In this document: positions 2,677-34,117 of the stretch, piece by piece
Layout: each line of letters begins with the position of its first letter
Position numbering within the stretch: the stretch's first letter is position 1
Virus record (IMG/VR): IMGVR_UViG_3300007609_001032
Location: 1 to 36,813 of that record
Source: a virus
Length of the DNA stretch: 36,813 nt
Direction: 5' to 3' (one strand)
The notes under the pieces: generated by a model
What the model was told of the DNA's origin: nothing
Seen by the model: the letters and a program-made list of their open reading frames with translations, nothing else
Database searches by the model: none
Program-made: the position numbers and the translations under genes

Positions 2677-3289
2677 CGCTTACTAATATTGTTAATCCTT
2701 TTTTTAATCCGCGGAAATGACTTCCACAATGTAATAAACTACTATCAAAAATTAATACTTCGCCTATGCGCCACGGAACTACTTGTTTAATACTTAGTCC
2801 CTGAACTGTTTCGTAAGGCAAATGTTTTAAATATGATTTATACTTTACAATATCAAAATTAAAATCTGTAATATTTTTTACACCATGATAACTACTTTTA
2901 CGCAAATTATATACCGGATCAGGCCAATACTTATATATACTGCCTACCATAAAATGACTTGCATCACCGTGCCATTGTTGGTCAAAAATAACGGTGTTAT
3001 GATCTTCTGCTTCTGTTAAGGGAATAACAATATTATATTTAGGAGTAAGATCGCCTAAATCTTCTTTTTTGCCTGTATCTGTATGTACATGAAATGGATT
3101 AGGAGTTTGAAAATAATTTCCGCCGGTTATTTTACCAGTGATATTTAAGTCTTCTAACAACCAATCGAAATCTTTTTTCGGAAATTTATGATTAATAATA
3201 CCATGAAGTTTTTCAACACGTTCACTATTATCTCTTATATCAAATATTTTTTTAATTTGATCTTTTTTTAAATTTCTAAGTTCCACCAT
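2669..3289 (-). CDS. 2-oxoglutarate/Fe(II)-dependent oxygenase
   Basis: This 206-residue protein has His69-Thr-Asp71 as the first two iron ligands, His187 as the third, and Lys197 ten residues later as the probable 2OG anchor. The double-stranded beta-helix core is otherwise recognisable, for example in the Tyr-Asn-Ile-Val-Ile-Pro-Leu strand at 85-91 and the Gly-Glu-Val-Leu-Ile-Phe-Asp strand before the distal His. It differs clearly from the other three oxygenases in the window. A strong AAGGAG ribosome-binding site precedes the ATG by 8 nt even though the start lies 22 nt inside the upstream rSAM gene, which supports this start. The substrate cannot be inferred. Confidence 0.75.
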   Translation of the reverse strand: MVELRNLKKDQIKKIFDIRDNSERVEKLHGIINHKFPKKDFDWLLEDLNITGKITGGNYFQTPNPFHVHTDTGKKEDLGDLTPKYNIVIPLTEAEDHNTVIFDQQWHGDASHFMVGSIYKYWPDPVYNLRKSSYHGVKNITDFNFDIVKYKSYLKHLPYETVQGLSIKQVVPWRIGEVLIFDSSLLHCGSHFRGLKKGLTILVSDV

Positions 3290-4440
3290 TTCTTAAACTC
3301 CTTGTATGTATTTAAAAAATTAGTGCTGTTTAACTTATCAATGTGACTTAGATAAACTTTTAAGTCATTCCAATGCACTTGATTACCTTTACTGCTGTTC
3401 ATAAAATCTAACACACGCTGAACTTCTTTTTGATTGTGAGAATTGAATTTAGTTATATCAATTTTGTTAATTGTTTGTTTTATCGGCTCTGGTAAATTTC
3501 TTATGTCTAGATGATGCGGGCGTTCTTGCACAAACATTACTTTAAAAAACATATTTCTGTCTTCGTGAAATTTTACAATATTTTCTAATCTAGTTATGTT
3601 TAGCATATTTATTGCACATACTCCGCTTATGCTAACATTATTATTGTAGCTTTGTATTCTAGTAATGTTTTCTTTTACTGTTTCTATGTCGCCGCCACTT
3701 CTAAAATAGCTGTATGTTTCTTCATCTGCATCAACACTTGCCCTTAGCTTAACTTCTTTGAACTTTTCAAAAAGTGACATTGCATCTTTTTCTTCATACT
3801 TTAGAGTACTAAGATTACTTACAATTAATAGTTCTATATTTTTTGCAACTTCTACAGGAACACTTTCTAAGAAATAATAAAACACAGGATCAGTTAGTGG
3901 TTCACCGCCTGTTATACGAATCTCGTCTACTGTAGAAAATAACGGAATCATACTATCTACTTCTGTTTGAGTAATTATTCTAGGATCACGGTTGTTAACA
4001 GACTGAAACTTTTCTAGTCCTTTATATTTCTTTAATTTGTTGTTCCACGATGTGCTGTGCTGTGAACCGCAATGCAAACAACTATAATTGCACAAATTGC
4101 TAAATCTTAGTTCAATACTTTTAAGTTGAGGATTTTCTATATTATCTGCATATTTGGCATAGTGTTCTAAATACCAGCTGCGAAGACTTAGGTTTTTAGT
4201 TTCGTTGTTTTCTTCTAGCTTCCAGCATCTTGCACATCCTTCTGGTTTTTCTCCTCGAAGAAACTTTTCACGTAATTCTTTATATGCTTCGCCGTTCCAA
4301 ATTTCTTCAAGAGTATTGTCGTCTAAGTTGCCGAGTATTTCATCGCTACGCCAACAGGGAGCAACTTGTCTATTTTTGTTTGCACGTATATTAGCATGTA
4401 CAAAAGGAAAGTAGCAAAAGAATTTATTTGTATTGCTCAT
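3268..4440 (-). CDS. Radical SAM protein with N-terminal twitch-like Fe-S domain
   Basis: This 390-residue protein belongs to the commonest family here: a cysteine cluster resembling a truncated SPASM ('twitch') domain lies before, not after, the rSAM core. N-terminal cysteines are Cys9, Cys29, Cys69 and Cys72. The rSAM [4Fe-4S] site is Cys117-x3-Cys121-x2-Cys124, and the SAM-contacting Gly-Gly-Glu-Pro is at 178-181. The core can cleave S-adenosylmethionine to a 5'-deoxyadenosyl radical, and the second cluster may bind substrate or relay electrons. The start has a GGAG site 5 nt upstream. It overlaps the upstream rSAM gene by 17 nt. The C-terminal Ile-Asp-Lys-Leu-Asn tail is a weakened form of the island-wide tail motif. 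Substrate unknown. Confidence 0.9.
   Translation of the reverse strand: MSNTNKFFCYFPFVHANIRANKNRQVAPCWRSDEILGNLDDNTLEEIWNGEAYKELREKFLRGEKPEGCARCWKLEENNETKNLSLRSWYLEHYAKYADNIENPQLKSIELRFSNLCNYSCLHCGSQHSTSWNNKLKKYKGLEKFQSVNNRDPRIITQTEVDSMIPLFSTVDEIRITGGEPLTDPVFYYFLESVPVEVAKNIELLIVSNLSTLKYEEKDAMSLFEKFKEVKLRASVDADEETYSYFRSGGDIETVKENITRIQSYNNNVSISGVCAINMLNITRLENIVKFHEDRNMFFKVMFVQERPHHLDIRNLPEPIKQTINKIDITKFNSHNQKEVQRVLDFMNSSKGNQVHWNDLKVYLSHIDKLNSTNFLNTYKEFKKWWNLEI
3298..3303 (-). promoter_or_regulatory. Ribosome-binding site of the oxygenase starting at 3289
   Basis: On the minus strand AAGGAG lies 8 nt upstream of the ATG at 3289, inside the final codons of the upstream rSAM gene. It is among the best Shine-Dalgarno matches in the window and fixes the start of the oxygenase. 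Confidence 0.7.
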
Positions 4441-5467
4441 TAATACTCCAAAAGCTGTTGTTCCTGTGCTGATCTACTTTTTCAATCCAATTGGTAAATT
4501 TTTCGTAGTCACCGTGTGGCAAAGTTTCTAGTGCAGTTATAATATGTTTTAATTCTTTATAGGGTTTTAATTTTTCTATAGTAAGGTTTCGTTGCCAAGG
4601 CAATAAGTTTTTAATACTCAAGTATTCTGGGTAGTCTAACAATCTAAACATAATAGGACTACGATTATTCCACCACTCAATAAGTTCAGGCATATGGTAT
4701 ACATTGAGAATACTTACAACGCAGTTAATGCTTACATCAATTCCTACTGCTATTGTTTTGTTAATATTGGTTTCTAGTTGTTCCCATTTGCTCAAATAGC
4801 GAACATAGTCACTAACTTCACCGATTCCGTCTACACTTAATATAAACTCTACTTTATCAAATTGAGAAAATAAATCTTTAAATTGTGTAGGATCCGTTGT
4901 GTTGTTAACAATATAAACTAGTGTAATATTTTTCGCAACATCAAAGTCTATTAGTTGTTGTAAAAACTTTTTGTGATCTGGCATGATTGTAACTTCACCG
5001 CCTGCAAGTTTAATACGCTTTAGGTCTTTAACTAAGTCCCAGGTTAACTCAATATCAATATCGTCTTGCGTGGTTTTTTGTGCAGTTCCAAAAATCTTTT
5101 GTTCTTCTGCAATCCATTTTGAACTATTATGACTACTACACGTGACACAGGCCAAGTTGCACAGATTTCCCATATAGATATCTAAGTCTGTTAGTTTAGC
5201 TACACCATCATCTACTTCTCTCTCATTCCATAAATGTCTATGGCTAGTGCCGCCTTTGTCTTCGTGCATTTGACATTTCCAGCATCCACTAGGTCGTGTG
5301 CTTGGATTATTTCGTATAGCTTCAAACTCTTTACTATAAAATACATCAACTATATCCGCTAGATTTTCTACTTTATTATCAAGTTCTCTTCTTTCATACC
5401 AACAGCACGGCCTTGCTTTACCGTTATTAATATATACATTTCTAAATGCTGCCATACAATATGCCAT
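4424..5467 (-). CDS. Radical SAM protein, N-terminal twitch type, GGEV variant
   Basis: At 347 residues this is the shortest of the N-twitch group. Twitch cysteines are Cys4, Cys21/22, Cys62 and Cys65; the rSAM motif is Cys103-x3-Cys107-x2-Cys110. The SAM-binding motif reads Gly-Gly-Glu-Val (156-159) instead of GGEP. A core strand carries Ser-Val-Asp-Gly-Ile-Gly and then Tyr-Val-Arg, as in most paralogs here. It follows the Gly-Trp-x-Cys rSAM at 5467-6429 with a single-base overlap, a pairing also seen at two other places in the island. An AAGGA site lies about 10 nt before the ATG. Either the missing Pro is tolerated or the enzyme has drifted in function. Confidence 0.88.
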   Translation of the reverse strand: MAYCMAAFRNVYINNGKARPCCWYERRELDNKVENLADIVDVFYSKEFEAIRNNPSTRPSGCWKCQMHEDKGGTSHRHLWNEREVDDGVAKLTDLDIYMGNLCNLACVTCSSHNSSKWIAEEQKIFGTAQKTTQDDIDIELTWDLVKDLKRIKLAGGEVTIMPDHKKFLQQLIDFDVAKNITLVYIVNNTTDPTQFKDLFSQFDKVEFILSVDGIGEVSDYVRYLSKWEQLETNINKTIAVGIDVSINCVVSILNVYHMPELIEWWNNRSPIMFRLLDYPEYLSIKNLLPWQRNLTIEKLKPYKELKHIITALETLPHGDYEKFTNWIEKVDQHRNNSFWSINEQYK

Positions 5468-6429
5468 TATATTTTTTCCTTAGGTATTTTTATATCGTCT
5501 ATACACCCACACCATATATCTTTACAAATTACTGGATCTTTTGAAATACTAGTTAAGTCTATATTATCATTGTTTATATTGCCAATTTTAAAATTTTTAG
5601 CAGTACTACATGTTGCACCTTTTATATCACCATTAATACCAATTGCTAGTCTATTTTTTATAATATTACACTTCCAACCCTTGAAGCAATTCAGCCGGTT
5701 ATTTACTAAATCCATAAAAGTGTTATTTGTTTTTTTATTATTAATATATAAAGAATTTCCCAGTGACGGAGAAGTTATATTATTATTTTTCTTCCAATAA
5801 TGCCATTCGTTCATAAATTTTAAAGTTTCTTTATCGTAAGTATACACAGATTTATCACTGATATTTCTATTAGGCATGACCGACTTTAAAAGAATTTTAC
5901 AATATAAATCTTTTTCTTTAAGATCAATTGCAAATTTTTTTGCTTCTGTAATTTTGAAAGGATTCATTACAACAAAAACTGCTACTCCAGTATTTTTACT
6001 CATAACATCAATTACTTGAGAAATATAATCTATATTAGCATATTCCATGTGTACACTTATAACTAAATGTTTTATTCTTTTTGTTTCAGATAATTTATTC
6101 CACCATCTAAGAGATCTACTACCGTTACTAACAATAGTAATGTTATAACTTTCATGTATATTTTCTAAAAAGTAAAATAATTCGGGCCAGAGAGTGGGCT
6201 CGCCGCCTGATAACGTTAACATTTTTTCATTATCGTTTAATTGATTATGAACTTTATCAAAAAAAGATAATGCAGAATTTATATTTGGCCAACCACTTGT
6301 ATTTCCATATAACATCGGATCACAATAATTACATGCATAGTTACAATGATTAGCTATCACCCAATCTATTGTTAAACCGTGATCGTTTTCAGTACCGATT
6401 TTAGATATTTCTGTATCTATTATATTCAT
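5467..6429 (-). CDS. Radical SAM protein with C-terminal Gly-Trp-x-Cys Fe-S domain
   Basis: This 320-residue protein starts almost directly with the rSAM core: Cys29-x3-Cys33-x2-Cys36 and Gly-Gly-Glu-Pro at 75-78. There is no N-terminal twitch. Instead the C-terminus has Cys248, Gly-Trp-Lys-Cys254, an Asn-Gly-Asp-Ile turn, Cys274, Gly-Asn-Ile, and a terminal Cys302/Cys307/Cys309 group followed by Ile-Pro-Lys. This should hold one auxiliary Fe-S cluster. The pattern is shared with the proteins at 12351-13463 and 22909-23901. AAAGGA precedes the ATG by 8 nt although the start lies 29 nt inside the upstream gene. Codons are noticeably Asn/Lys/Ile-rich, and its neighbour at 6401-7555 shows the same bias. 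Confidence 0.88.
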   Translation of the reverse strand: MNIIDTEISKIGTENDHGLTIDWVIANHCNYACNYCDPMLYGNTSGWPNINSALSFFDKVHNQLNDNEKMLTLSGGEPTLWPELFYFLENIHESYNITIVSNGSRSLRWWNKLSETKRIKHLVISVHMEYANIDYISQVIDVMSKNTGVAVFVVMNPFKITEAKKFAIDLKEKDLYCKILLKSVMPNRNISDKSVYTYDKETLKFMNEWHYWKKNNNITSPSLGNSLYINNKKTNNTFMDLVNNRLNCFKGWKCNIIKNRLAIGINGDIKGATCSTAKNFKIGNINNDNIDLTSISKDPVICKDIWCGCIDDIKIPKEKI

Positions 6430-7555
6430 TTAATGAATCCTTTGTAAATAGATGCGGAGCAATATTCGGTAAGTTCTTATTTCTAGATTTATCTAATAAA
6501 GCACTAAATTTTATAAATGTTTGATATTCTTCTTCATTGCAAGGGGTATCTATATTTTTTATTACAGATTTTATTTTGTGATATTTAGGATACGTTGTCG
6601 GAATAGTCTCAAGTTCTTGTTTTATAAAAGGTTTAGCTTCTTTTGGCATGTTCCATAATTGTAACCATTTTGGGTTTTGTAAAAATATTACGTTGACTAA
6701 TCTATCTTCGAATAAGTCTATACAAGGTTTTAAATGATGTATATTTGTATTTTGCACAACATAGTTAAAATTAATACCACTTAATGGAAGTTTTAAAAAT
6801 TTTTGAATATTTTTATAAAATAAATCGTATGAATAATTTTTCGATCCTCTTACATAGTCATATACTTCGTCTAATCCGTCGATACTTAGAGATATGTGTA
6901 TTTTTATTTTTTCACATATTTTAGGAAACCAGTCTGGAAAAAATGTACCGTTAGTAGTTAATACTACTTTTATGTTATTTTTTACAGAACTTAGTTTTTC
7001 AAACAAGTATTTAGAATTAGGAAGTGCTAATGGTTCGCCGCCTTTTAACTCAACTTCTACGTCAGTATCTTCTGCCTCTATCCAATTAATTATTTTATCT
7101 ATAGACTGATTTGTTATAGTTTTACTAAAAAACATCTCAGGAGGAATGTATATCGATTCTCCAATACCATTTTTTAGTAGCATTGCTTGATCGTTATTCC
7201 ATTGTGTACTATTAGTGCTGTTACACATAATACATTTTAAGTTACAAAAATTACCAATTGCAATGTCTGCAACTCGAGTTCCTTTTTTAAAATATTTTTC
7301 GTTATAAATCTGTCGACGACTGGCGATGTCTAACTCTTCATCTCTCTTACATCGTATGCACCCTAATGGCCAATTATCACTATCTAATTCATTTCTTACT
7401 TCTATAAATGTATCTGATTTTTTTATATCTATTATAGAGTCTGTAGTATCAATATTTTTTATATTATAATTATCTTTAGACGCAAATCTACAGCAAGGCA
7501 CAATGATTCCATTAGGATATATTGTTACAGCCCTGTCTGTAAAAAAACATTTCAT
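6401..7555 (-). CDS. Radical SAM protein, N-terminal twitch type
   Basis: This 384-residue protein has twitch cysteines Cys3, Cys21/22, Cys66 and Cys69; rSAM Cys104-x3-Cys108-x2-Cys111; and Gly-Gly-Glu-Pro at 172-175. A core strand contains Leu-Ser-Ile-Asp-Gly-Leu and then Tyr-Asp-Tyr-Val-Arg-Gly. It is closest to the protein at 11251-12351: both start Met-Lys-Cys-Phe, share Lys-Gly-Gly-Glu-Pro-Leu, Asn-Phe-Cys-Asn-Leu-Lys-Cys and Asn-Ser-Thr-Gln-Trp, and have the Leu-Asp-x-x-Arg tail. The two were probably produced by duplication and now sit in different neighbourhoods. A 4-nt overlap links it to the upstream oxygenase, and AGGA lies before the ATG. Confidence 0.9.
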   Translation of the reverse strand: MKCFFTDRAVTIYPNGIIVPCCRFASKDNYNIKNIDTTDSIIDIKKSDTFIEVRNELDSDNWPLGCIRCKRDEELDIASRRQIYNEKYFKKGTRVADIAIGNFCNLKCIMCNSTNSTQWNNDQAMLLKNGIGESIYIPPEMFFSKTITNQSIDKIINWIEAEDTDVEVELKGGEPLALPNSKYLFEKLSSVKNNIKVVLTTNGTFFPDWFPKICEKIKIHISLSIDGLDEVYDYVRGSKNYSYDLFYKNIQKFLKLPLSGINFNYVVQNTNIHHLKPCIDLFEDRLVNVIFLQNPKWLQLWNMPKEAKPFIKQELETIPTTYPKYHKIKSVIKNIDTPCNEEEYQTFIKFSALLDKSRNKNLPNIAPHLFTKDSLNEYNRYRNI

Positions 7556-8145
7556 TTAAAAAATCCTGTAAAACTTAAACGAACATTATTTCCAGCTGCT
7601 TGATCAACTCTCTCAACTTTATGAAATACTTTTTTAATAATAACTAATCTATTAGGTTTAGGAGCATACCAACTACCGTAACCTGGATTAGATACACTAG
7701 GATTATTATCGAATACCGTGCCATTGTTTCCTTGTGTGTCTATAGTCTCATTATAATCTGAAACTAATAAATTACCTCCCCATTGAGGCTTCCATTCATT
7801 GTGTAAGTAAAAACTATAACTAGCTAAACTGCTATAATCCATGTGCCAGTCTATTTCTGCGCCGGCTTTATACGCATGAGTCATTAAACTAAATTTTTCG
7901 CATGGCACAGGATTTAGATTTATTATTGATTCAAACCATTTTGTAAACTTGCCTTTAGGATCATCACTCCAATATTTACGTGTGGTTTTATAAATGTCGC
8001 CTGTGTTTAGTTTGTAGGCATTATCGTCACCATGCGGTACCAATACATAATCGTGTGTACGTGCTTCGTGTTGCAGTTCTTTAAATATTTCGTCTGATAA
8101 AAAATTATCGTACACTATTAGTTGTTCGTTTTCAAATTTTTTCAT
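7552..8145 (-). CDS. 2-oxoglutarate/Fe(II)-dependent oxygenase, prolyl 4-hydroxylase-like
   Basis: This 197-residue protein has the layout of the prolyl 4-hydroxylase-like superfamily. His101-Met-Asp103 gives the first two iron ligands, Trp-Gly-Gly at 122-124 is the conserved strand after HxD, His175 is the distal ligand, and Arg189 may bind 2OG. The Asn-Arg-Leu-Val-Ile strand preceding the distal His is typical. Members hydroxylate peptidyl proline, other side chains or small molecules. It overlaps the upstream B12-type rSAM and the downstream N-twitch rSAM by 4 nt each, so it is firmly embedded in the operon. A GGAAGA site lies about 9 nt before the start. Confidence 0.8.
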   Translation of the reverse strand: MKKFENEQLIVYDNFLSDEIFKELQHEARTHDYVLVPHGDDNAYKLNTGDIYKTTRKYWSDDPKGKFTKWFESIINLNPVPCEKFSLMTHAYKAGAEIDWHMDYSSLASYSFYLHNEWKPQWGGNLLVSDYNETIDTQGNNGTVFDNNPSVSNPGYGSWYAPKPNRLVIIKKVFHKVERVDQAAGNNVRLSFTGFFK

Positions 8146-9560
8146 TTTTTAGAATCTTCCATTGCAGTTTTACTTTCACTGAACACCATAATTTTTCCAC
8201 TAAAGTTTTCTTTTATAAAATTAATAGATTCAACAAGTCTTCTATTTCTTTCTTCAGCATCTAGTATTTCGCCATTTGGTAATTCTCTTGTCCAATTAGT
8301 ATGTGTTTCTGAATTCGTAATTTTAAGTTCTTCTATTTGTTTTGATAGTCCAGTATCGGTACTTATGTACAACTCGTTAACAACTGCTCGGTCAACTACA
8401 TCTGCATACCCGCGGTCTCTTATCATACGCAGCATGTCCATAGTTTTTTCAAAATCTGCTTTTGTTTCTGTAGGATATCCTACAATAATTAATAAATTTA
8501 CTTTTAATCCATACTTTTTACACATATCAAATGTGTACATAATTTCATCGTCAGTTTCAGTTTTCCCAATATGGGTACGCACTTCTTGGCTTCCTGATTC
8601 TACACCGATTTTTAATCTAAAGAAGCCGCTTTCTGCCATTAGTCTGAAGTCTTCTTCACGGGTTTGATTCATAGGACGTATTCTATAAAATGCTACAATT
8701 TTAGGCGTAGTATCAGGATCTTCTTTGTTGAGTCTAGAAAGTTCAGTAATCATCTTTCTATACTCTCTGAGACTGCCGTTTATTAAGCTATCCGCAAACT
8801 CAATCCACTCAGGATTATACTGCTTTTGTATATCCTTTACTTCGTTAGCAAATTTAGTGCCGTCTTTAAATCGATATTTCATAAGTGCGGGTACATTACA
8901 AAAACTACAATCAAATACACATCCTCGTGTACCAATTAGAAAAACTCTATTCTGTTTTGGATCTAAACTTCTATATCTTTCAAAATTAATGTCACTATAA
9001 TCGGGGCCAGGAAGTTCGGAAAATGTTGCATTGCTCACAGCATGAGGTTTGTTTGTATTAATACTAGGATGGTCAAATTTGCCTTCAAGAGCATTTAAAA
9101 ATGCTTCTTCGCCGTCGCCTACTACATGATAATCTACCCAACCTTCTTTTAAGGCACGATCGCCTAATTCGATTGTAGCAGGACCTCCCATAATAATTGG
9201 AATGTCTGTCTTACTGCGGAGAACTTTACAAATACGTCCTAGATAAAATTCACTAGCCCAAACATGCGTGCTTAACCCTATAAGTTTAGGATCATGGCTT
9301 AACCAATAATCGGCCCATTCTCCAATGATAGTGTCTAAGTCATATGTTTCATCAAAATCTTTAAAATCATTATACGGCCAATTTTTTTTATGCTCAGGTG
9401 TAAGAAGTTCTACCATATCTAATGTAGGATTAAAACAAGTGACTTTATATCCTTTTAAAGCTGCATATGATTTTAGAAGACTCGGTGCAATATGAGGACC
9501 GTTATAAAATAACGGAGGAACCGAGATCATTGCGCAATCAATCATTATACATAAACTCAT
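8142..9560 (-). CDS. Radical SAM protein of the B12-binding-domain architecture
   Basis: This 472-residue protein has a Rossmann-like N-terminal half with the pattern of cobalamin-binding rSAM enzymes: Gly-Gly-Pro at 125-127 after a hydrophobic strand and Gly-Asp-Gly-Glu-Glu-Ala-Phe at 148-154. The rSAM core has Cys214-x3-Cys218-x2-Cys221 and later Gly-Val-Glu-Ser-Gly-Ser. The Asp-x-His-x-x-Gly base-off cobalamin motif is not visible, so B12 use is uncertain. Known relatives carry out methylation, ring contraction or cyclisation at unactivated carbons. The start could also be the ATG at 9545, which gives the 8-nt overlap usual here; neither start has a good ribosome-binding site. A hairpin at 9566-9591 lies just upstream. 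Confidence 0.87.
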   Translation of the reverse strand: MSLCIMIDCAMISVPPLFYNGPHIAPSLLKSYAALKGYKVTCFNPTLDMVELLTPEHKKNWPYNDFKDFDETYDLDTIIGEWADYWLSHDPKLIGLSTHVWASEFYLGRICKVLRSKTDIPIIMGGPATIELGDRALKEGWVDYHVVGDGEEAFLNALEGKFDHPSINTNKPHAVSNATFSELPGPDYSDINFERYRSLDPKQNRVFLIGTRGCVFDCSFCNVPALMKYRFKDGTKFANEVKDIQKQYNPEWIEFADSLINGSLREYRKMITELSRLNKEDPDTTPKIVAFYRIRPMNQTREEDFRLMAESGFFRLKIGVESGSQEVRTHIGKTETDDEIMYTFDMCKKYGLKVNLLIIVGYPTETKADFEKTMDMLRMIRDRGYADVVDRAVVNELYISTDTGLSKQIEELKITNSETHTNWTRELPNGEILDAEERNRRLVESINFIKENFSGKIMVFSESKTAMEDSKK

Positions 9561-10698: not shown

Positions 10699-11254
10699 GT
10701 TGTATCGGATCCACACTTAAAAAATTGATGTTAATTTCCTTAGGTTGCTCTATTATCCATTCCACATAACTTGCAACTAAATCCATATCAAGACAAATTC
10801 TACCAGGATTATCATCTAATCTATTTTCCATAGTACCGATACTTAGGTGTGTTACTTTTGGTTCATTACTCCATACACCGGCTATAGAAAACCCGTTACT
10901 CCACTCTTTTAGAGCAAGTTTTTCATAATGATATCTATTTGTTTTTCCTCGGCGTACATTATCAGTGGTACTGCCAATATTTATAATACGCTTATGTCCT
11001 TCATTTTGTTCAGACCAATAATGCCATAAATTGTGTGCAATTAATGTTTGTCTAAAAAAGAAGTTAGCATATAAATTAATAAAAATATCTGCATCTTCTA
11101 CAAGTTCTACTATTTTCTTAATATTTCCGTCATCGTTGAAATCTACGCCAGTTTCTCTACTAAAGCATACGCATTCATGCCCCTTAGCTTCTAGCCTATC
11201 TACAATATATTTGCATAGGTCCTTGTTTCTGTTGCCGGTCATGGCTATTTTCAT
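10688..11254 (-). CDS. Short-chain dehydrogenase/epimerase-like Rossmann protein
   Basis: This 188-residue protein starts with a beta strand and a Thr-Gly-Asn-Arg-Asn turn (6-10) where SDR enzymes bind NAD(P), followed by Asp-Ala-Asp-Ile-Phe-Ile-Asn at 54-60. It then has Ile-Gly-Ser95-Thr-Thr and Tyr108-x3-Lys112, matching the SDR Ser-Tyr-Lys catalytic set. The canonical Gly-x3-Gly-x-Gly loop is not complete and the protein is short, so the C-terminal substrate lobe is reduced. It could oxidise or reduce a sugar or hydroxy intermediate, feeding the aminotransferase-like enzymes. AAAGGA precedes the ATG by 6 nt, and its start overlaps the upstream rSAM stop as ATGA. Confidence 0.72.
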   Translation of the reverse strand: MKIAMTGNRNKDLCKYIVDRLEAKGHECVCFSRETGVDFNDDGNIKKIVELVEDADIFINLYANFFFRQTLIAHNLWHYWSEQNEGHKRIINIGSTTDNVRRGKTNRYHYEKLALKEWSNGFSIAGVWSNEPKVTHLSIGTMENRLDDNPGRICLDMDLVASYVEWIIEQPKEININFLSVDPIQHDR

Positions 11255-13468: not shown

Positions 13469-13496
13469 ATTGTAACACCTTACATATTTTTGTCAA
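13469..13496 (-). promoter_or_regulatory. Sigma70-type promoter of the unit starting at 13463
   Basis: On the minus strand, TTGACA (13496-13491) is followed after 16 nt by TACAAT (13474-13469), and the ATG at 13463 begins 5 nt later. It occupies one of only four gaps in the minus-strand gene chain and overlaps the last codons of the upstream aminotransferase-like gene. A start six or seven bases downstream of the -10 would fall on the ATG, giving a leaderless transcript, which agrees with the absence of a Shine-Dalgarno sequence. Confidence 0.6.
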
Positions 13497-21535: not shown

Positions 21536-21564
21536 ATTATACTGCCGTTTAGATTATTTGTCAA
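21536..21564 (-). promoter_or_regulatory. Perfect-consensus sigma70 promoter, predicted leaderless transcript
   Basis: On the minus strand, TTGACA (21564-21559) and TATAAT (21541-21536) are separated by exactly 17 nt, a perfect match to the bacterial housekeeping promoter. The six bases after the -10 lead directly into the ATG at 21529, so the expected +1 is the A of the start codon. It lies in a 24-nt gap plus the last codons of the upstream rSAM. It should be read by host RNA polymerase without phage factors. Confidence 0.82.
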
Positions 21565-27286: not shown

Positions 27287-28485
27287 TGTAAACCTTGTAG
27301 TTCTGGAAATATATCAAATACATCTTCATTGCGAAGCTTGTCTAATCGTTGTGTTTTAAAACGCCACATAGGAATTTCTTTAGTTCTGTCTGTTTCAAGA
27401 TATTGTAAAATATTTTTATAGTCTTGTTTTACACTATCTATATTTTCAAATTGATCTAGATAGATTAAATGTTCGTCATATCTTTTGCGTATCACATCCT
27501 TTTCTGCTTCAGGAAGAATTTGTAAACGCATGTATGTAGGGTCGAGTAAAATATTAATACGTATGTTTTGAGGTTCTAATAATCCTTCTTCAATCCATTC
27601 TTTGTGGAAGTCAGGTAAATTAAGAACATTATACACGCTTACCGTAGGCGTTAATTCAAAGTATACATGGGGACATTGTTCTAACATATCTTTTCGATTT
27701 TGAACAACTTGTGACCAATCCATGTTTTTGCGTAAATATTCTGCTCTGGCATGATTTGCATCTAAACTTGCTGCAACTCTTATATGCTCAAAACTATTCC
27801 AATATTCAAATGCTGTTTTGCGTTTGTAGAACATTTGTGTAAAATTAGTAGTATAGTCCATACGAACATCACGATTGCCCATTTCAATCCATTTGTCTAG
27901 GATTTGATAATGTTCTTTTGTAATTAACGGTTCGCCGCCTGCCCAATAAACACGTTCTACACTTTCGAGAAGTGGATCTAACTCGTCCATAAAGCTTTTC
28001 ATTTCGTCGCGAACTTGTAGAATCTTAGGATGTCCCGGGTCGCCATGAGTAGCTTTATGATCTTCAAACCAACTACTACTAAACTGCGGGCCGCAACTGC
28101 GACATTTTAGATTACACAAGTTACTGAATCGTATATCCATGTAGTTTAAACTTACATCGCCTGCACTACCGTCAGGTCCTGTCTGCATTACTTTATCCCA
28201 ATGATGTTTAAAATTTTCATTAGAGCTTAATCGCAATGTATTCATATTGTTTTCTTCAAGTTCATAACAACGTCTACACTCGGGAGAGGCTGCACCGTTT
28301 AGCATATTAAGTCGAAGCTGACGCATTTTGTCACCGTTCCAAATATCTTGCAACGATTCTTTTTGTGTATCTCCTACAGGTAAGTCTGGATCAGCTAAAC
28401 AACAGGGATATGTTGTTCCAGCAGGCCAAAGATGCATATGCACCCACGGTAACATGCAAAATACCTTATCCTCTTTTTTAATCAT
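27283..28485 (-). CDS. Radical SAM protein, N-terminal twitch type
   Basis: This 400-residue protein has Cys10, Cys28/29, Cys70 and Cys73 in the twitch; rSAM Cys124-x3-Cys128-x2-Cys131; and Gly-Gly-Glu-Pro at 183-186. It is the nearest relative of the next protein upstream (28478-29677), with every cysteine of the two sites at the same residue number, indicating tandem duplication. Its tail Leu-Asp-Lys-Leu-Arg-Asn-Glu and Phe-Asp-Ile-Phe-Pro-Glu is the clearest example of the shared C-terminal motif. A GAGAG site lies 4 nt before the ATG. Confidence 0.93.
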   Translation of the reverse strand: MIKKEDKVFCMLPWVHMHLWPAGTTYPCCLADPDLPVGDTQKESLQDIWNGDKMRQLRLNMLNGAASPECRRCYELEENNMNTLRLSSNENFKHHWDKVMQTGPDGSAGDVSLNYMDIRFSNLCNLKCRSCGPQFSSSWFEDHKATHGDPGHPKILQVRDEMKSFMDELDPLLESVERVYWAGGEPLITKEHYQILDKWIEMGNRDVRMDYTTNFTQMFYKRKTAFEYWNSFEHIRVAASLDANHARAEYLRKNMDWSQVVQNRKDMLEQCPHVYFELTPTVSVYNVLNLPDFHKEWIEEGLLEPQNIRINILLDPTYMRLQILPEAEKDVIRKRYDEHLIYLDQFENIDSVKQDYKNILQYLETDRTKEIPMWRFKTQRLDKLRNEDVFDIFPELQGLQ

Positions 28486-29677
28486 ATAACTCTCTCATTT
28501 CTGGAAACACATCTACAAAATTTTCTTTTCTTTTCTCGTCAATACGTTGCATTTCTCGTTTAAATTCAGGAATTCTATCACTATTATCATTTGCCCACAT
28601 AAAATCAATAACTTTTTGTAGACTATCACGCATATGGTCTTGAGAACCTTGATCCATTTGTTCGTATTTAGAAAAGTCTTCTATTAAGTTTATTATACGC
28701 TCTTCTGCAATATTTTTCAAGTGTTTTGGTAAAATTGTGCAACTTAAATATTCAGGAGTAATTAATAAGTTGTTAATATTCATTTGAAAGTTATAAACAA
28801 AATTATTATCAAAGCAGTATCTAATGATATCAGCTAAGTCCATTATATTTAAAACACTAATAGTAGGATTAGGTTTGAGTTTTAAGTTAGGAACATTGTC
28901 ACGCATCCACAATAAGTTATCGTAAATTTTTTGCCAAGGCTGACCATGTCGTGTGTATTCTGCTTTTAGACCGATTTGATCAAAACTTACATAATAATCT
29001 ATTTTATCAAAATGTTTCCAATAGTCTTTAATATGTTTATTTTTAAGACCTAGTCTACTAGCATTACTATTATAAGTTAATCTAGGTTTATGTCCCCGTT
29101 CGATTAACATTTCTAAAAGTCGGTAATGCTGTTCCATGAACATACTTTCGCCGCCTGTAAAATAGACCTCTTCGATATTAGGAAGTAGTTCTTCTATTTC
29201 TTCCCAAAGATTAGGATGGTTAATTTCAACAATATGCGGTTTACCATACTCGTCTTCGCCCCATTTACTACTAAAATGAGTGCCGCAACTGCGACATTTC
29301 ATATTGCATAAATTCGAAAATCTTACATCAAAGTAACTAATGTTAAGTTTATCTACTGTACCGTCTGCCTGAGTGGTATCAACAAGGTCTTTATGATGTG
29401 CATAGTCTTTATTCATTTTGTGGCGATAGGACAATATTCCCTGTTCTTCGTACATAAAACATTTACGGCATCCTTCAGTAGGTGTATTCTCTAACATTTT
29501 AAGACGAAGTTCTTTCATCTTTTTACTATTCCACACACCTTTTAAACCGCCTTCGTTAATATTTCCAATAGGCGTTTGCCAATCATATATACAGCAAGGA
29601 TAAGCATCCCCTGTTTGCCAGACACTCATATGCACCCAAGGAGCCATGCAAAAGTGTTTTTCAAATTTATTCTTCAT
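28478..29677 (-). CDS. Radical SAM protein, N-terminal twitch type, GGES variant
   Basis: This 399-residue protein has Cys10, Cys28/29, Cys70 and Cys73; Cys124-x3-Cys128-x2-Cys131; and Gly-Gly-Glu-Ser at 175-178. The core strand carries Val-Ser-Phe-Asp-Gln in place of Ser-Ile-Asp-Ala, a further departure from its tandem sister at 27283-28485. The shared Ile-Asp-Glu-Lys-Arg and Phe-Val-Asp-Val-Phe-Pro-Glu tail is intact. AGGTGG, one of the best ribosome-binding sites here, precedes the ATG by 4 nt. It overlaps the upstream rSAM by 11 nt and the downstream one by 8 nt. Confidence 0.92.
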   Translation of the reverse strand: MKNKFEKHFCMAPWVHMSVWQTGDAYPCCIYDWQTPIGNINEGGLKGVWNSKKMKELRLKMLENTPTEGCRKCFMYEEQGILSYRHKMNKDYAHHKDLVDTTQADGTVDKLNISYFDVRFSNLCNMKCRSCGTHFSSKWGEDEYGKPHIVEINHPNLWEEIEELLPNIEEVYFTGGESMFMEQHYRLLEMLIERGHKPRLTYNSNASRLGLKNKHIKDYWKHFDKIDYYVSFDQIGLKAEYTRHGQPWQKIYDNLLWMRDNVPNLKLKPNPTISVLNIMDLADIIRYCFDNNFVYNFQMNINNLLITPEYLSCTILPKHLKNIAEERIINLIEDFSKYEQMDQGSQDHMRDSLQKVIDFMWANDNSDRIPEFKREMQRIDEKRKENFVDVFPEMRELYD

Positions 29678-30986
29678 TTAGCCACCTTTGTTTATGTTCT
29701 TTAGACACATATGTCTCATAGATATATTTAAAATGTGGTATTTCCTTCCATTTATCTGTATACCATAACTTATAGCTGATTTCTATAGCAAAATATTTTG
29801 GATCAAATGTATCCTTTTCATTCATAAAGTTAATTAAGTTATACATTTTACTAGAAATATCATCAATTGCGTAATGGCTTACATTATTATGCATGTCGCG
29901 TGTTTTGATTTGTTCAGCCCAACGAGAAAGACGTTCGGACATATCTTTCTTAACTTCAGGAGGTAAACTAGTAATACTAAACGGAGTAGGAGTATATGCT
30001 ATGTTTGTTGTAAACCAAGTGTCTTCTTTTACGAGATTATGTTCTAGTATATAATCGTACATAGTAGTAATATGATCTATATTTAATATAGAAATTGTAC
30101 TATCATAATTTAGTCTTATGTTTTCATAAGGTAATAGAGTTTTAATATTTTCTTCTAGTATGTTCCAGTTAGTTCCGTGCCTAATTAAATTTGCACGTTC
30201 ACCTACAGCATCGATACTCATGCCTAGCTCTATATTATTAAAATTTTTCCAGTATTCGTAAATTGGTTTCTTTTTATAATATAGATTACTTAAATTAGTG
30301 TTATAGCGAAGTTTAGTGTCAGTAACCTTTTTTTCTTCTAGCAGTTCAAGTAACTTATAATGATCGTCCATTATTAATGGTTCGCCGCCTGCAAAGTAAA
30401 TCTGATGACTATCTTTTAAGTGCGGTTCTAATTGCTTAATAATATCTACTTTTGAATGATTGTTAATTTTGCTATATTTGTGTTGAGAGTTAAATGTTCT
30501 TCCGTTTGCTTCGGCATTTTCTTTTGCCATTTGTACCCATTTTGTACTAAACACTGGGCCACAACTAGCACACGCAAAGTTACATTGATTACTAAATCTA
30601 ACATCTATATATTTTAATTTAAATTTATCAACAGAACCGTCATCATTCGTTTCATCAATAATATCAACATATTGTCCAAAATCTCCGTTTGCAAAAGTTC
30701 GATAGCTAGGAGATCCAGATTCTTCTACTCCATGACATCGTCTACAAATAGGGTTTTTTATTCCATTCAGCATATCCAAACGAAGTTTATTCCAGTCATC
30801 GCTATTGAATATTTCTTCAAGAGTCTTATCTTTTGTATTTTCGTTAATAGTATCTTGTTCAACGGTACAACACGGAAAGGTTCTGCCGTCGGGTTCAGTA
30901 TACATATGAATCCAAGGAAAGATGCAGAAACTGCCGTCTTTCACTGCATCAAGAAAGTCAGCTTTTTGTTCGTCACTATATTTCAT
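29667..30986 (-). CDS. Radical SAM protein, N-terminal twitch type
   Basis: This 439-residue protein has about eleven extra residues before the twitch. Cysteines are Cys21, Cys39/40, Cys81 and Cys84; rSAM Cys135-x3-Cys139-x2-Cys142; and Gly-Gly-Glu-Pro at 200-203. The core strand reads Met-Ser-Ile-Asp-Ala-Val-Gly and then Ala-Asn-Leu-Ile-Arg-His. The tail diverges (Trp-Lys-Glu-Ile-Pro-His-Phe) and lacks Phe-Pro-Glu. It is the third member of the tandem run 27283-30986. The ATG overlaps the stop of the upstream glycosyltransferase-like gene as ATGA, with AAGAG ahead of it. Confidence 0.92.
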   Translation of the reverse strand: MKYSDEQKADFLDAVKDGSFCIFPWIHMYTEPDGRTFPCCTVEQDTINENTKDKTLEEIFNSDDWNKLRLDMLNGIKNPICRRCHGVEESGSPSYRTFANGDFGQYVDIIDETNDDGSVDKFKLKYIDVRFSNQCNFACASCGPVFSTKWVQMAKENAEANGRTFNSQHKYSKINNHSKVDIIKQLEPHLKDSHQIYFAGGEPLIMDDHYKLLELLEEKKVTDTKLRYNTNLSNLYYKKKPIYEYWKNFNNIELGMSIDAVGERANLIRHGTNWNILEENIKTLLPYENIRLNYDSTISILNIDHITTMYDYILEHNLVKEDTWFTTNIAYTPTPFSITSLPPEVKKDMSERLSRWAEQIKTRDMHNNVSHYAIDDISSKMYNLINFMNEKDTFDPKYFAIEISYKLWYTDKWKEIPHFKYIYETYVSKEHKQRWLNEE

Positions 30987-32188
30987 GACGTAGCTCTTAA
31001 CAATTTTTCTTCAATCGGCTTCCAACTAATTTTGCGTGTCATAAAATTATTCCAATTATGTTCTATACATTCCCAGTACTTATTTTTAATTAGATACTTA
31101 AAATTATCTAATGGTCTTTTTTCTAAAGTTCTAATTAACGTTACAGCATCTTCGTATGTTTGAATTGTTTCCATGCCAAAAAAACTTTCAAATGTTTTAT
31201 ATCCTCTAGCTCTTAACGTTTCATTCATTGCCGGATTACCAACAAGTATAAACGGGTGACAATGTACTATTGCCTTAAAAGTTTTTTCAGTAAGAAAGTT
31301 TTCTACATCTAGACTTTCTGTAATAATACTTATTAAGCTGTTGTGATAATACGGTAAAACTGAATCACTATGCCATATTACTTGGTCTGAAGGTTCATCT
31401 AGTTTTCTATCTTGGTAGATTCTTGGTTCATTTACAATTTTTTCTGTTAAATTACTAGGCATTTTTTTGCATTCGTTTCTAATCCATGCTACTAAACTAT
31501 CTTTGGTATAATTTTCAGATTTGGCAATAGACGGAATATGATAGCTGACATAGCTGTCATCTATTAATTTAGTATCTAATAAACTTTGATACCACCACAG
31601 ACGATGACCTTTTAAATTCCTATTTAAAGTTAGCGCCTTTTTATTAGCAGTATCAATTGTTTTAAGCTTTTCCTCTGGAGTTATAAACGAAACGTCAGAA
31701 AAGTGTTTTAAGTGGTGTCTGTATTGTGCTTCCCACCATTCCGGGACACTTACAAATTTTAATCCATTAACAATTTTGTTATTATATTCTTCACTACTAC
31801 AAGTAAAAATAATTTTTTCTTTTTTTATTCCAGACTGATCAATAATTTCATACAATTCATCTGGCCTAAATGTAGCTTCGTGTGGACTATACATCCACAG
31901 ATAACTATTGCTATCATTATTAATTGTATCAATAGTTTTTTTGTCGTTAATCCATATATTAGGACTAGCGTCAGGAAAATAGCATAAATTAAAATAAAGT
32001 TTTAAGTCAGTTGCTGGAAGTAAAGGTAATAAATCTTTTTTTACTAAGCAATTATAATCAAAATCAGTATAAAAGCCTAGCACGGTTTCTATACTCATCA
32101 CAGCCCAATCGGGAACTTTTACACTAGACGAACTATAAATGTCATTGTGTACATTTTCAACTATAATATATAGCTGTCTTTTATTCAT
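30983..32188 (-). CDS. Probable GT-B-type glycosyltransferase-like protein
   Basis: This 401-residue protein has two recognisable regions. One is Leu-Thr-Leu-Asn-Arg-x4-His-Arg (186-196), like the central strand of exostosin/fucosyltransferase-type enzymes. The other is Ile-Ile-Thr-Glu-Ser followed by Phe-Leu-Thr-Glu-Lys-Thr-Phe-Lys-Ala-Ile and Pro-Phe-Ile-Leu-Val-Gly (288-317). The Glu-Lys-Thr-Phe-Lys plus Pro-Phe-Ile-x-x-Gly combination is typical of the nucleotide-sugar-binding half of GT10/GT47-like proteins. No membrane segment is visible, so it is probably cytoplasmic. It overlaps its neighbours by 8 and 4 nt. The exact family and sugar are uncertain. Confidence 0.58.
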   Translation of the reverse strand: MNKRQLYIIVENVHNDIYSSSSVKVPDWAVMSIETVLGFYTDFDYNCLVKKDLLPLLPATDLKLYFNLCYFPDASPNIWINDKKTIDTINNDSNSYLWMYSPHEATFRPDELYEIIDQSGIKKEKIIFTCSSEEYNNKIVNGLKFVSVPEWWEAQYRHHLKHFSDVSFITPEEKLKTIDTANKKALTLNRNLKGHRLWWYQSLLDTKLIDDSYVSYHIPSIAKSENYTKDSLVAWIRNECKKMPSNLTEKIVNEPRIYQDRKLDEPSDQVIWHSDSVLPYYHNSLISIITESLDVENFLTEKTFKAIVHCHPFILVGNPAMNETLRARGYKTFESFFGMETIQTYEDAVTLIRTLEKRPLDNFKYLIKNKYWECIEHNWNNFMTRKISWKPIEEKLLRATS

Positions 32189-32723
32189 TAAGGAAGCCGC
32201 TAATTTGTAGAGTTATTTTTGGTTGTAACCCTATATTGCCGCTTACATGAAGAATACCACTATCCCAAAGCCAACCTTCTCCTTGTTTCCAATGAGTATG
32301 ACTCTGCCAGTCTTTGTTTGTGTCTTGATATTGTATTACATGCCCGACTTTCCAGTCTTCTAAATACATATTAGCACGTACTTTAGTACGAGTATCATCA
32401 GGATACATATTATTAATTTTAAAGAATGTATCTCTGTGTACCGTAATTACATTTCCAGGAGGTTGCAGTATACTACTCACGGTTACAACTTCCATATTCA
32501 TTTGACGGCCTAGTTCTTCGTAATCAACTTGATCTTTATCCCACCATAGTTGTTGAATACGTGTGTTGTCTTCATGATAGCTTTTTGGAAAGCCACCAGC
32601 AGACTCGTGTATATCTTCTTGTTCTCTTACTTGATACGAAATACAACTTCCGTAATGTTGATCATAATCTGCATTTAAAAATACATCAAAATCGTAATCT
32701 AAATTAACTGCTCTAAGTAACAT
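32181..32723 (-). CDS. 2-oxoglutarate/Fe(II)-dependent oxygenase-like protein
   Basis: This 180-residue protein has His96-Arg-Asp98, distal His159 and Lys169 ten residues on, the spacing of 2OG/Fe(II) oxygenases. A strand ending Pro-Pro-Gly-Asn-Val-Ile-Thr-Val precedes HxD, and Gly-Trp-Leu-Trp-Asp-Ser-Gly-Ile-Leu precedes the distal His, as in the double-stranded beta-helix fold. Its relation to the other three oxygenases is distant. A strong ribosome-binding site (AGGAG, 6 nt before ATG) sits in a 20-nt gap, so this gene is probably translated more independently than its neighbours. Substrate unknown. Confidence 0.7.
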   Translation of the reverse strand: MLLRAVNLDYDFDVFLNADYDQHYGSCISYQVREQEDIHESAGGFPKSYHEDNTRIQQLWWDKDQVDYEELGRQMNMEVVTVSSILQPPGNVITVHRDTFFKINNMYPDDTRTKVRANMYLEDWKVGHVIQYQDTNKDWQSHTHWKQGEGWLWDSGILHVSGNIGLQPKITLQISGFLNE

Positions 32724-32734: not shown

Positions 32735-32743
32735 GAATATTAG

Positions 32744-34117
32744 TTATTTATTTGCTGCTTTCTTACACTGATGGAAAAATTTAGCCATTTCAGGAAATGT
32801 ATCTTGATAGTTGATATTTCGACGACGGTCTTGTTCTTGGAAAAAGTTATGAAAGTCTTTTCTGCCTTCTTGAATACGTTCTTCTGGGTACTCTGCTGTA
32901 CGCATGTAGTCAACTACACGGCGAAACTTTTCATATTCTAGGGTACTAAATGCATGTTTGCTGTCATCATCTAAATTGTCTTTAATAAATTGTAAATGAC
33001 TTTCCATATAAGGCATGTAATCTTCTTTAGGAAGAATATTCATATCATATTGTAGAGGTTCTTTGAGATAGGGTGTATCGAAATGAATACGTTGCCAGCG
33101 ATGTGTTTCAATATTATTATATTTTTTACGCCATTCTAAAATCTTTTCTAGCAGGCTTTGGAATGTTGTAACACTAAAAATATTAAATGTAATCATAAAT
33201 GTTAAAGGAGCAGTAGTATTTTCTAAGAAGTAATCCATGTTACGTTCAAATACTTCAATATCTAAACCATCTCGAATGTATTCTGCACGTTCTCCCCATG
33301 TGTCAACACTAGTAAACAACTTAAATTGTTTAATTTTATCTTGACTTAATAAGCTGTTTACACTATCAGTAAATTTTTCTAGTTGTTTGGGCTTGCCGCC
33401 TAGGTTAGTATTAACATTAAGTTCTAGATGCGGCTTGGGATCTTTTTCTAGTAGATCAAACAATTTGTAAGTACTGGTTTGAATAGTTGCTTCGCCGCCT
33501 GTAATACGCAAAATGTTTAGTGTTTTACTAACTTCAGGCCACCATTTCCACCATGCATCTAGATAAGGGTTTGATTCTTCCTCATAAATGTTGAACCAAT
33601 CAATATCACAGCGGTGATTATTGACCATATCATACGGACCAAACTTTTTTATTTCATTATAAAATCGACTACTTGCTTTTGGATGGCAATATCCGCATCG
33701 GAAGTTACACTCGTTACCGAAACTAACTTCTAAATATTCTGGATTAACATTAAAATCTGGTTCTTTAGTAGCAACTTCGTTTAGCCTGTCGTTGCTATAA
33801 ATGCTACTACTGCGTATATGTCTATCACTAACATAGTCTTTGCCCATGTTTTCAACGTTCCAGCAGTATTGACAACCACTAGTCTGAACACCGTTGAGCA
33901 TTTCCATGCGTTCTTGTTTTTTAATCATAGTGTTGTGTAATGCACTAGGATTTTCTTTGATTTCATCAACATCAATTGCATGTGGTGCAGGATGATAGCA
34001 GCTATGTGTTTCGCCTGTTTGAAAATAGATATTGGCATGATACCATTTGGCAAAACAAAACGTTTTACTAAAATGTTTATCAGTTAACTCTCGAACTTTT
34101 TTTAATTTTTCGTCCAT
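32744..34117 (-). CDS. Radical SAM protein, N-terminal twitch type, GGEA variant
   Basis: This 457-residue protein is the first rSAM of the island in transcription order. Twitch cysteines are Cys21, Cys40 (single), Cys82 and Cys85; rSAM Cys137-x3-Cys141-x2-Cys144; and Gly-Gly-Glu-Ala at 207-210. The core strand has Thr-Ser-Val-Asp-Thr-Trp-Gly and then Glu-Tyr-Ile-Arg. It is the most divergent N-twitch member in the core, yet it keeps the tail Gln-Asp-Arg-Arg-Arg and Tyr-Gln-Asp-Thr-Phe-Pro-Glu. It shares one base with the stop of the glycosyltransferase-like gene upstream. GAGAG precedes the ATG. Confidence 0.9.
   Translation of the reverse strand: MDEKLKKVRELTDKHFSKTFCFAKWYHANIYFQTGETHSCYHPAPHAIDVDEIKENPSALHNTMIKKQERMEMLNGVQTSGCQYCWNVENMGKDYVSDRHIRSSSIYSNDRLNEVATKEPDFNVNPEYLEVSFGNECNFRCGYCHPKASSRFYNEIKKFGPYDMVNNHRCDIDWFNIYEEESNPYLDAWWKWWPEVSKTLNILRITGGEATIQTSTYKLFDLLEKDPKPHLELNVNTNLGGKPKQLEKFTDSVNSLLSQDKIKQFKLFTSVDTWGERAEYIRDGLDIEVFERNMDYFLENTTAPLTFMITFNIFSVTTFQSLLEKILEWRKKYNNIETHRWQRIHFDTPYLKEPLQYDMNILPKEDYMPYMESHLQFIKDNLDDDSKHAFSTLEYEKFRRVVDYMRTAEYPEERIQEGRKDFHNFFQEQDRRRNINYQDTFPEMAKFFHQCKKAANK

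Follow-up and report, generated by a model that had tools for sequence, protein, structure and literature searches.

Twenty radical SAM genes in a phage island adjoining tail-fibre and glycosyltransferase-like genes

We analysed a stretch of viral DNA of 36,813 bases, the entire IMG/VR record IMGVR_UViG_3300007609_001032 (hereafter the window), in which an island of genes for radical S-adenosylmethionine (SAM) enzymes occupies positions 3268-34117. The interval holds 29 genes, all on the minus strand, with overlaps of a few bases the commonest arrangement. The largest intergenic gap in the window is 71 bp, and the summed gene lengths amount to 99.8% of it, overlaps being counted twice. The original prediction, made from the letters alone, described 20 proteins with an intact CxxxCxxC site on this strand in an unbroken run. 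An open reading frame (ORF) motif scan recovered all 20, and no key cysteine was lost on re-reading. The run itself is less continuous than described, as nine of the 29 genes are not radical SAM genes, the other 20 being so. Rfam and tRNA scans of the window gave no match.

Radical SAM proteins and their cluster ligands

All 20 proteins matched the radical SAM family PF04055 at E <= 1.8e-6, and 17 of them exceeded its cut-off. The three that fell below it (r11, r17 and r20) nevertheless scored 417.6, 398.5 and 302.3 bits against NF033640 (N_Twi_rSAM), for which the curated whole-protein cut-off is 170 bits. These Pfam and NCBIfam family matches exclude a chance origin of the motifs. Together with the cysteine patterns, they also agreed with the predicted classes: 14 N-twitch, three Gly-Trp-x-Cys (GWxC), one SPASM-like and two B12-type proteins. 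The name N-twitch denotes what looks, from the sequence, like a twitch domain set before the radical SAM core. All 14 N-twitch proteins exceeded the NF033640 cut-off (189.5-417.6 bits) and belong to that family, whose description gives no function; we claim no new class. The three GWxC proteins (r03, r08 and r14) have the GWxC motif and further invariant C-terminal cysteines in common. For r12, the SPASM-like assignment was read from C-terminal cysteines alone, and an NCBIfam search gave no family over cut-off. The closest pair of radical SAM proteins inside the window is 34.7% identical, and the genes are therefore old paralogues.

The paralogues had been predicted to keep both Fe-S sites, as an argument for function rather than decay. 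Seven cysteines, four and three for the two sites (C8, C26, C68, C71, C125, C129 and C132), are invariant in the 14 N-twitch proteins of the window. We then compared 493 full-length N-twitch proteins from the fetched loci, gathered with a profile of the 14 window proteins that favours cysteine, so that very divergent or cysteine-less relatives could escape it. All seven residues were kept in 440 of 442 proteins from other viruses (218 of 219 after thinning of the viral set at 70% identity), in nine of nine copies from the window's own virus, and in 40 of 42 sequences from loci in metagenome-assembled genomes (MAGs). Three of the four exceptions have D for C26, and the fourth is an unread base. 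With a median column identity of 31% in this set, such conservation rules out decaying paralogues and argues for function, as predicted. An N-twitch gene with one in-frame TGA is present in two seemingly near-identical contigs (G010:C1:25124-26287 and G011:C1:24651-25814); either the gene is damaged or the codon is recoded.

A profile of the N-terminal part of the N-twitch proteins matched the C-terminal auxiliary domain of BtrN (E 2.6e-6) with the cysteines aligned, and this was its only solved match. BtrN (PDB 4m7s/4m7t) thus shares a sequence-detectable Cys4 auxiliary (twitch) domain with the island proteins and differs in its placement: the matched domain is C-terminal in BtrN (residues 163-238 of 269 in the chain), whereas in the island proteins it lies N-terminal of the core.

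Artificial joining of several genomes, raised beforehand as a way in which so many genes could appear together, is unlikely for positions 10342-36813. Contig IMGVR_UViG_3300026097_000684 aligns gap-free to that part at 99.94-99.99% and overshoots the right end by 4.5 kb, although the two matching assemblies may share reads. For positions 1-10341 no second assembly was present among the fetched loci, and the case against a chimera is confined to 10342-36813. In locus L243 (13120-17171), homologues of g02 to g05 and g07 (52-68% identity) lie together on the strand opposite r11, as compared with window 307-5467, and by sequence this group is perhaps a movable cassette. A homologue of g01 (39%) in the same locus lies on r11's strand, unlike the inverted group.

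The fibre block and the colinear backbone

Beyond the window's right end, the additional 4.5 kb (L089) holds the end of a fibre-type protein (FIB), two proteins that we call GYG, a 119-amino-acid protein (p119) and two GT8-like proteins (GT8a and GT8b), followed by the window's last genes. Contig G001 carries the window's sequence on into this FIB/GYG block, and the island thus adjoins tail-fibre genes. We compared 80 loci carrying relatives of g35, the best of 185; one of them is the second contig of the window's virus. The order p119-GT8a-GT8b-g36-g35 was intact in 74 of the 75 loci with room for it, the remaining locus carrying an unlabelled ORF instead of g36, and GYG lay upstream of p119 in 74 of 74. 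Downstream of the block, CxxxCxxC genes followed in 61 of the 70 loci whose downstream sequence exceeds 3 kb. In the other nine, where g35 is always 61-62% identical, a second g35-type gene comes next and then the opposite strand; therefore, the fibre and glycosyltransferase block also exists without radical SAM genes. In the loci L197-L207 (g35 61-62%), the block ends in two g35-type genes and no radical SAM gene was seen, L198 and L200 having little downstream sequence. This arrangement is possibly an ancestral or a reduced form.

In a relative, L122, three upstream proteins match tail-fibre or virion-structural PHROGs, one of them also a Collar domain, and the FIB relative matches a tail-fibre PHROG at E 3.1e-18. 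The AlphaFold2 model of g35 (mean predicted confidence, pLDDT, 91.7) resembles GT-A folds in the PDB, with Z up to 10.5 and a root-mean-square deviation of 3.1 over 142 residues. On this model, g35 is a probable glycosyltransferase. GYG is predicted to form a beta-sandwich (pLDDT 87.9). Foldseek gave no solved relative of it at E <= 0.001, and the best Z was 6.6; lectin-like structural matches had middling Z, and we do not claim a lectin identity. Three proteins in BFVD matched GYG at E <= 4.1e-19, all unnamed or uncharacterised.

Eight window genes (g35, g24, g23, g22, r12, r11, r10 and r08) were placed by identity thresholds in 180 viral loci, not all of them distinct, as repeated fetching of a contig gave some overlaps. 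Pairs of these backbone genes numbered 1220, all of them on the same strand, and 1191 were in window order; 26 of the 29 pairs out of order fall within g35/g24/g23, where paralogy can confuse the labels. Four radical SAM genes (r12, r11, r10 and r08) belong to this backbone. Outside it, r20 has a counterpart of at least 40% identity in 20 of the fetched loci, and r02, r03, r16 and r17 have one in a single locus each; for the other 11 there was none in these loci. Thus, the backbone order is conserved and the copy number is not, a survey of both having been proposed with the original prediction. The set had been predicted to imply many distinct C-H activations on one scaffold, or one reaction applied to many substrates. 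The divergence of the paralogues, with four constant and 16 mostly variable radical SAM genes, suggests at the sequence level that they serve different substrates or sites rather than being recent copies of a single enzyme.

Other genes of these islands are mixed. UDP-glucose dehydrogenase and NAD-epimerase genes are present in viral islands, and others encode an arginine-deiminase-like protein, just below cut-off, and PP-loop proteins with a weak QueC match. In or beside the island of G046 are a tryptophan-halogenase gene (L123 18147-19514, 252.9 bits) and an AMP-binding gene (L124 548-1246, 49.1 bits). Homologues of g22 occur in 64 loci, none of them a MAG locus, and 47 of the 64 are devoid of cysteine. 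Table 1 lists the genes of the window. The related-virus gene L111 10289-11587, which resembles the convergent gene at the window's left end, lies on the strand opposite the island and matched no named family, its single match being phrog_16452, of unknown function (E 0.00093).

Table 1. Genes of the window, in window coordinates (NF033640 scores in bits)
Feature	Position	Strand	Evidence
3' part of convergent gene closing the island's left side, structural-type by reading	2..310	+	53% over 83 aa to L111 10289-11587
g01, Asp/Asn beta-hydroxylase-like	307..861	-	PF05118, 37.1 bits, over cut-off
g02, GNAT acetyltransferase	861..1298	-	PF00583 over cut-off
g03, pyridoxal phosphate (PLP) aminotransferase-like	1280..2140	-	PF00155 over cut-off
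g04, kinase-like by reading only	2137..2676	-	Pfam, PHROG: no match
g05, 2-oxoglutarate (2OG)-oxygenase-like by motif reading only	2669..3289	-	Pfam, PHROG: no match
r01, N-twitch	3268..4440	-	NF033640 277.7
r02, N-twitch	4424..5467	-	NF033640 250.6
r03, GWxC type	5467..6429	-	PF04055, NCBIfam, GWxC alignment
r04, N-twitch	6401..7555	-	NF033640 189.5
g10, 2OG-Fe(II) oxygenase	7552..8145	-	PF13640 over cut-off; phrog_19810 (PHROG label: DNA endonuclease V)
r05, B12-domain type	8142..9560	-	B12/radical SAM families, all below their cut-offs
r06, N-twitch, GTG start	9538..10716	-	NF033640 209.6
g13, small protein, SDR-like by motif reading	10688..11254	-	homologues in related islands
r07, N-twitch	11251..12351	-	NF033640 212.4
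r08, GWxC type, backbone	12351..13463	-	viral relatives 83-100% (best 80); Bdellovibrionota-type MAGs 60-68%
g16, PLP aminotransferase-like, g03 paralogue	13480..14397	-	29% to g03; Pfam: no match
r09, N-twitch	14342..15565	-	NF033640 387.3
r10, N-twitch, backbone	15555..16913	-	NF033640 377.1; >=40% in 46 other loci
g19, unknown	16906..17406	-	Pfam, PHROG: no match
r11, N-twitch, backbone	17403..18809	-	NF033640 417.6; >=50% in 123 other loci
r12, SPASM-like by reading, backbone	18881..19966	-	PF04055 over cut-off; >=50% in 91 other loci
g22, small protein, 77 aa	19959..20192	-	homologues in 64 loci
g23, unknown backbone protein	20179..20862	-	locus comparison
g24, g35 paralogue, GT-A-type by kinship	20846..21529	-	alignment with g35; fold predicted for g35 only
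r13, N-twitch	21554..22912	-	NF033640 317.4
r14, GWxC type	22909..23901	-	PF04055, NCBIfam, GWxC alignment
r15, N-twitch	23901..25109	-	NF033640 297.2
r16, B12-binding type	25097..27286	-	PF02310 47.8 bits (over cut-off); PF04055 58.2 bits
r17, N-twitch	27283..28485	-	NF033640 398.5
r18, N-twitch	28478..29677	-	NF033640 378.4
r19, N-twitch	29667..30986	-	NF033640 344
g32, unknown, glycosyltransferase-like by reading only	30983..32188	-	Pfam, PHROG: no match
g33, 2OG-oxygenase-like by reading only	32181..32723	-	Pfam, PHROG: no match
r20, N-twitch	32744..34117	-	NF033640 302.3
g35, GT-A-fold protein, probable glycosyltransferase (model)	34117..35046	-	AlphaFold2 model, PDB comparison
g36, unknown, constant-block member	35039..36409	-	synteny; Pfam, PHROG: no match
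GT8b, 3' part, GT8-like (complete: L089 3759-4913)	36402..36812	-	PF01501, E 0.0018, below cut-off

Relatives in viruses and in bacteria

A scan of IMG/VR with r08 revealed at least 595 relatives; the best 80 are 83-100% identical to it, the one at 100% being the window's virus. We counted PF04055 matches in 50 contigs, namely, 48 of these best 80, picked mainly for length, and the contigs of L090 and L091. The sample was chosen for relatives of window genes and is biased to such islands; it includes the window virus's second contig, near-duplicates and many fragments. Matches ranged from 0 to 24 per contig, with at least 10 in 39 contigs and at least 20 in four. The uniqueness that had been implied for a locus with so many radical SAM genes is contradicted by these counts and by a published T4-like virus with 12 (see below). 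The density of radical SAM genes was 5.4 per 10 kb in the window and had a median of 4.2 across the 49 r11 loci that span 15 kb or more, the window virus included. A 146-kb contig, G040 (L073), carries r08 and a g22-like gene with one PF04055 match, and a gp23 search of it was negative.

No capsid gene is listed in the window. The T4 capsid gene gp23 was present in 10 of the 50 contigs, partial in one, and the gp23 of two related contigs was nearest (70-75%) to those of Sinorhizobium phage Phosso, Vibrio phage 2.275.O and PA5oct-like Pseudomonas phages, which we take to be large T4-like phages. By these relatives, the window's virus is probably T4-like; gp23 and the upstream tail-fibre PHROGs in a relative likewise uphold the predicted phage origin. 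No close isolate relative was found by megablast of window positions 1-25000 (25001-36813 left out). In 50,697 phage records, tblastn of r08, of g35 and of the second GYG protein gave no match; r09 gave 20 weak matches (about 24%), 19 of them to Vibrio phages including KVP40, and r11 gave three.

Many radical SAM genes in one T4-like virus have been described before, in TARA_ERS488813_N000010, with 12 in a 183-kb genome (Nishimura et al. 2017, PMC5332604). As compared by its description, that virus was discussed in terms of Fe-S metabolism, with an A-type carrier gene, and a fibre link, gene order or N-twitch class does not figure in the account available to us. Such carriers are rare among the related contigs here (4 of 50, many being fragments), as is IscU (1 of 50), and phage Fe-S assembly genes as a constant companion of the island are unsupported. 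The single IscU-like scaffold gene, G046:C1:158109-158480 (L124), lies kilobases off the island. The host-recognition cluster of pelagimyophages is closer in kind, a hypervariable island, lying between VrlC and gp14, that is described as combining radical SAM cassettes with glycosyltransferases and tail fibres (Zaragoza-Solas et al. 2020, PMC7029224). Loci free of radical SAM genes are also reported there, for a freshwater group. The present locus differs in its 20 radical SAM genes, in its defined colinear backbone and in related gp23 sequences nearest those of Phosso, 2.275.O and PA5oct-like phages. In a search of the open-licence PubMed Central (PMC) literature, none of four features was found described: the backbone, the dominance of N-twitch proteins, the fibre and glycosyltransferase block and the bacterial parallel set out below. 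Nothing decisive came from PMC10783043, PMC9301287, PMC7150976, PMC12619734 or PMC12028318. By sequence comparison, what is new is the near-constant fibre/GYG/p119/GT8/g36/GT-A block preceding the island, the colinear backbone with four radical SAM genes, and a related core in Bdellovibrionota-type genomes.

Scanning bacterial genomes with r08 gave 14 loci. Ten are titled Bdellovibrionia, Bdellovibrionales, Halobacteriovoraceae or Oligoflexia, and an eleventh (L093), titled 'bacterium', comes from a genome in the same phylum; these 11 have r08 at 60-68% identity, and several have it alongside r11-, r12-, g24- and g35-like genes. The other three are in Rickettsiales, Gammaproteobacteria and Acidimicrobiaceae MAGs. 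Among 191 genomes of the Bdellovibrionota-type phylum, 55 had an N-twitch protein over cut-off and 12 had r08 (E <= 1e-40), in 11 of which an r11-like N-twitch match (E <= 1.1e-122) lay within 2.4 kb of r08. The bacterial arrays thus resemble the island in the r08/r11-like pair and, in several, the r12-, g24- and g35-like neighbours; they differ from it in that 190 of the 191 genomes are without GYG. In the remaining genome (L098), r08 is followed by GYG-p119-GT8a-GT8b-g36-like-g35, and the same contig has a PheT-like gene (pheT by reading). Single contigs may be mis-binned in MAGs. With this distribution, GYG as a universal substrate, bacteria included, is unsupported. A dense N-twitch array with Asp/Asn hydroxylase-like and UDPGP genes occupies L106 and L107 (738-778 kb of the 917-kb contig G053:C1) of a Bdellovibrionia MAG. 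A single search of the open-licence PMC literature aimed at such bacterial arrays gave no published description.

What the island may do

We favour, with a probability of about 0.45 and thus slightly below even odds, the reading that the enzymes of the island act on the neighbouring fibre proteins, either by making or altering a glycan there or by changing side chains. On this view, a large and probably T4-like phage has a hypervariable tailoring locus joined to its host-recognition (tail-fibre) module. The constant block comprises the fibre proteins, the GYG beta-sandwich proteins, the two GT8-like proteins and one GT-A-fold protein, to which the backbone adds a second GT-A-type gene, g22, g23 and the four constant radical SAM genes. 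Between these lies a changing set of further radical SAM, 2OG-oxygenase, PLP, acyl- and sugar-nucleotide-type enzymes. On the fibre and GYG proteins encoded alongside, the products would assemble or alter a glycan of unusual chemistry, or would alter side chains, and swapping enzymes would alter the adhesive surface. In the N-twitch enzymes, SAM would be cleaved at the core cluster, and the N-terminal auxiliary cluster would accept an electron, a role considered likely in BtrN. From the observed gene content, cluster ligands, synteny and predicted g35 fold, we infer glycosyl transfer, its substrate and an effect on adsorption. A glycan is preferred over direct residue change because the constant block holds likely glycosyltransferases, because islands carry sugar-nucleotide enzymes (in viruses, and UDPGP in a bacterial array), and because BtrN, the sole solved match of the N-twitch part, is described as oxidising an aminocyclitol (PMC9012708).

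Several observations weigh against this reading. Synteny ties the island to fibres and stops short of showing fibre modification, and the substrate, product and glycan are putative. The fetched loci are not independent, including near-duplicate contigs, some fetched repeatedly. Upstream of the block, the FIB fragment in L089 has weak head-scaffold and head-decoration PHROG matches, and some other proteins also match 'virion structural' head PHROGs. The GT8 label comes from the single sub-threshold GT8b match; GT8a has no family match and was named from its similarity to GT8b. For g35, the best Foldseek E was 2e-4 with low TM-scores (query TM <= 0.36), and the fold occurs in nucleotidyltransferases too (MobA and IspD matches). 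The best NCBIfam matches of the six radical SAM proteins outside the N-twitch class are to viperin, lipid, RiPP (ribosomally synthesized and post-translationally modified peptide), cofactor-maturase, STM4011 and N_Twi models, all below cut-off; for prokaryotic viperin (NF038283, cut-off 180 bits), the best score was 43.6 bits, for r03. The tryptophan-halogenase, AMP-binding and QueC-like cargo would fit a small-molecule pathway equally. Finally, GYG is present in one of 191 bacterial genomes; the cellular versions must therefore have another target, and the case for a fibre-specific substrate is the weaker for it.

The main rival, which fits nearly as well and which we hold as a lesser, tentative possibility, is remodelling of the host surface: glycosyltransferases and radical SAM enzymes would alter the lipopolysaccharide or capsule of the infected cell and block superinfection, and would sit beside the fibres through shared selection on host range. 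Such a role has been proposed for pelagimyophage GT8 genes (PMC7029224). It would also account for the sugar-nucleotide enzymes in the islands and for a radical SAM and glycosyltransferase core in bacterial contigs that nearly always lack GYG, and sits less well with the near-constant block of GT8-like, GT-A and GYG genes (74/75) that persists without radical SAM genes in 9 of 70 loci. Transfer of unrelated functions into a cargo hotspot, where the number of radical SAM genes would reflect gene supply and not one pathway, seems improbable to us. The 16 genes with few close counterparts, the inverted g02-g05 and g07 cassette in L243 and the chemically mixed cargo point that way; the constancy and order of four radical SAM genes, the cluster ligands kept in 440 of 442 proteins and the dominance of radical SAM genes in the cargo (at the median density given above) point away from it.

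SPASM/twitch and B12 radical SAM enzymes are typical of RiPP pathways, and an infecting phage could use the island to make a RiPP or another small-molecule natural product, for instance one aimed at competitors or at the host. We consider this unlikely. The alignment of r16 to a RiPP C-methyltransferase model reached 118.9 bits against a cut-off of 281.85, and the halogenase, AMP-binding and sub-threshold arginine-deiminase-like proteins of other islands would suit such a product. However, none of the 20 radical SAM proteins exceeded a RiPP maturase cut-off among the matches listed (for three proteins, the best 25), and no precursor gene was found among genes that overlap or are at most 71 bp apart (overlapping frames were not searched). 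The sole small gene, g22, was rejected as a precursor, being conserved along its length with no variable core. T4-like phages glycosylate their DNA, and hypermodification of phage DNA bases against restriction is a further reading, to which we give very little credence. The PP-loop proteins and a weak match of r08 to a QueE-like PHROG (E 1.1e-6) lean towards it. Against it are the fibre genes adjoining the island, QueE scores far under the cut-offs of 206.1 and 260.1 bits (r03 at best 34.7, r14 21.0, and QueE absent among the 25 of 28 NCBIfam matches listed for r08), and the variation between related viruses of most of the 16 radical SAM genes outside the backbone.

The reading of a fibre-directed tailoring locus can be extended, doubtfully, to a division of labour. 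A constant core of glycosyltransferases and radical SAM enzymes might set a base decoration on the tail fibres, to which exchanged N-twitch, B12 and GWxC enzymes would add virus-specific chemistry. Host recognition would then evolve through enzyme swaps and not fibre residues, and in Bdellovibrionota a related core would act on the cell's own surface.

With at least 595 relatives in IMG/VR and yet none in 50,697 phage records, r08 is a common gene of uncultured viruses that is missing from the isolate collection. The 440 of 442 viral N-twitch enzymes with both cluster sites are a large stock of uncharacterised radical SAM enzymes, and the link to Bdellovibrionota-type bacteria offers a cellular system for tests of the core. 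Should the fibre reading be true, the island would represent an undescribed phage route to receptor-binding diversity.

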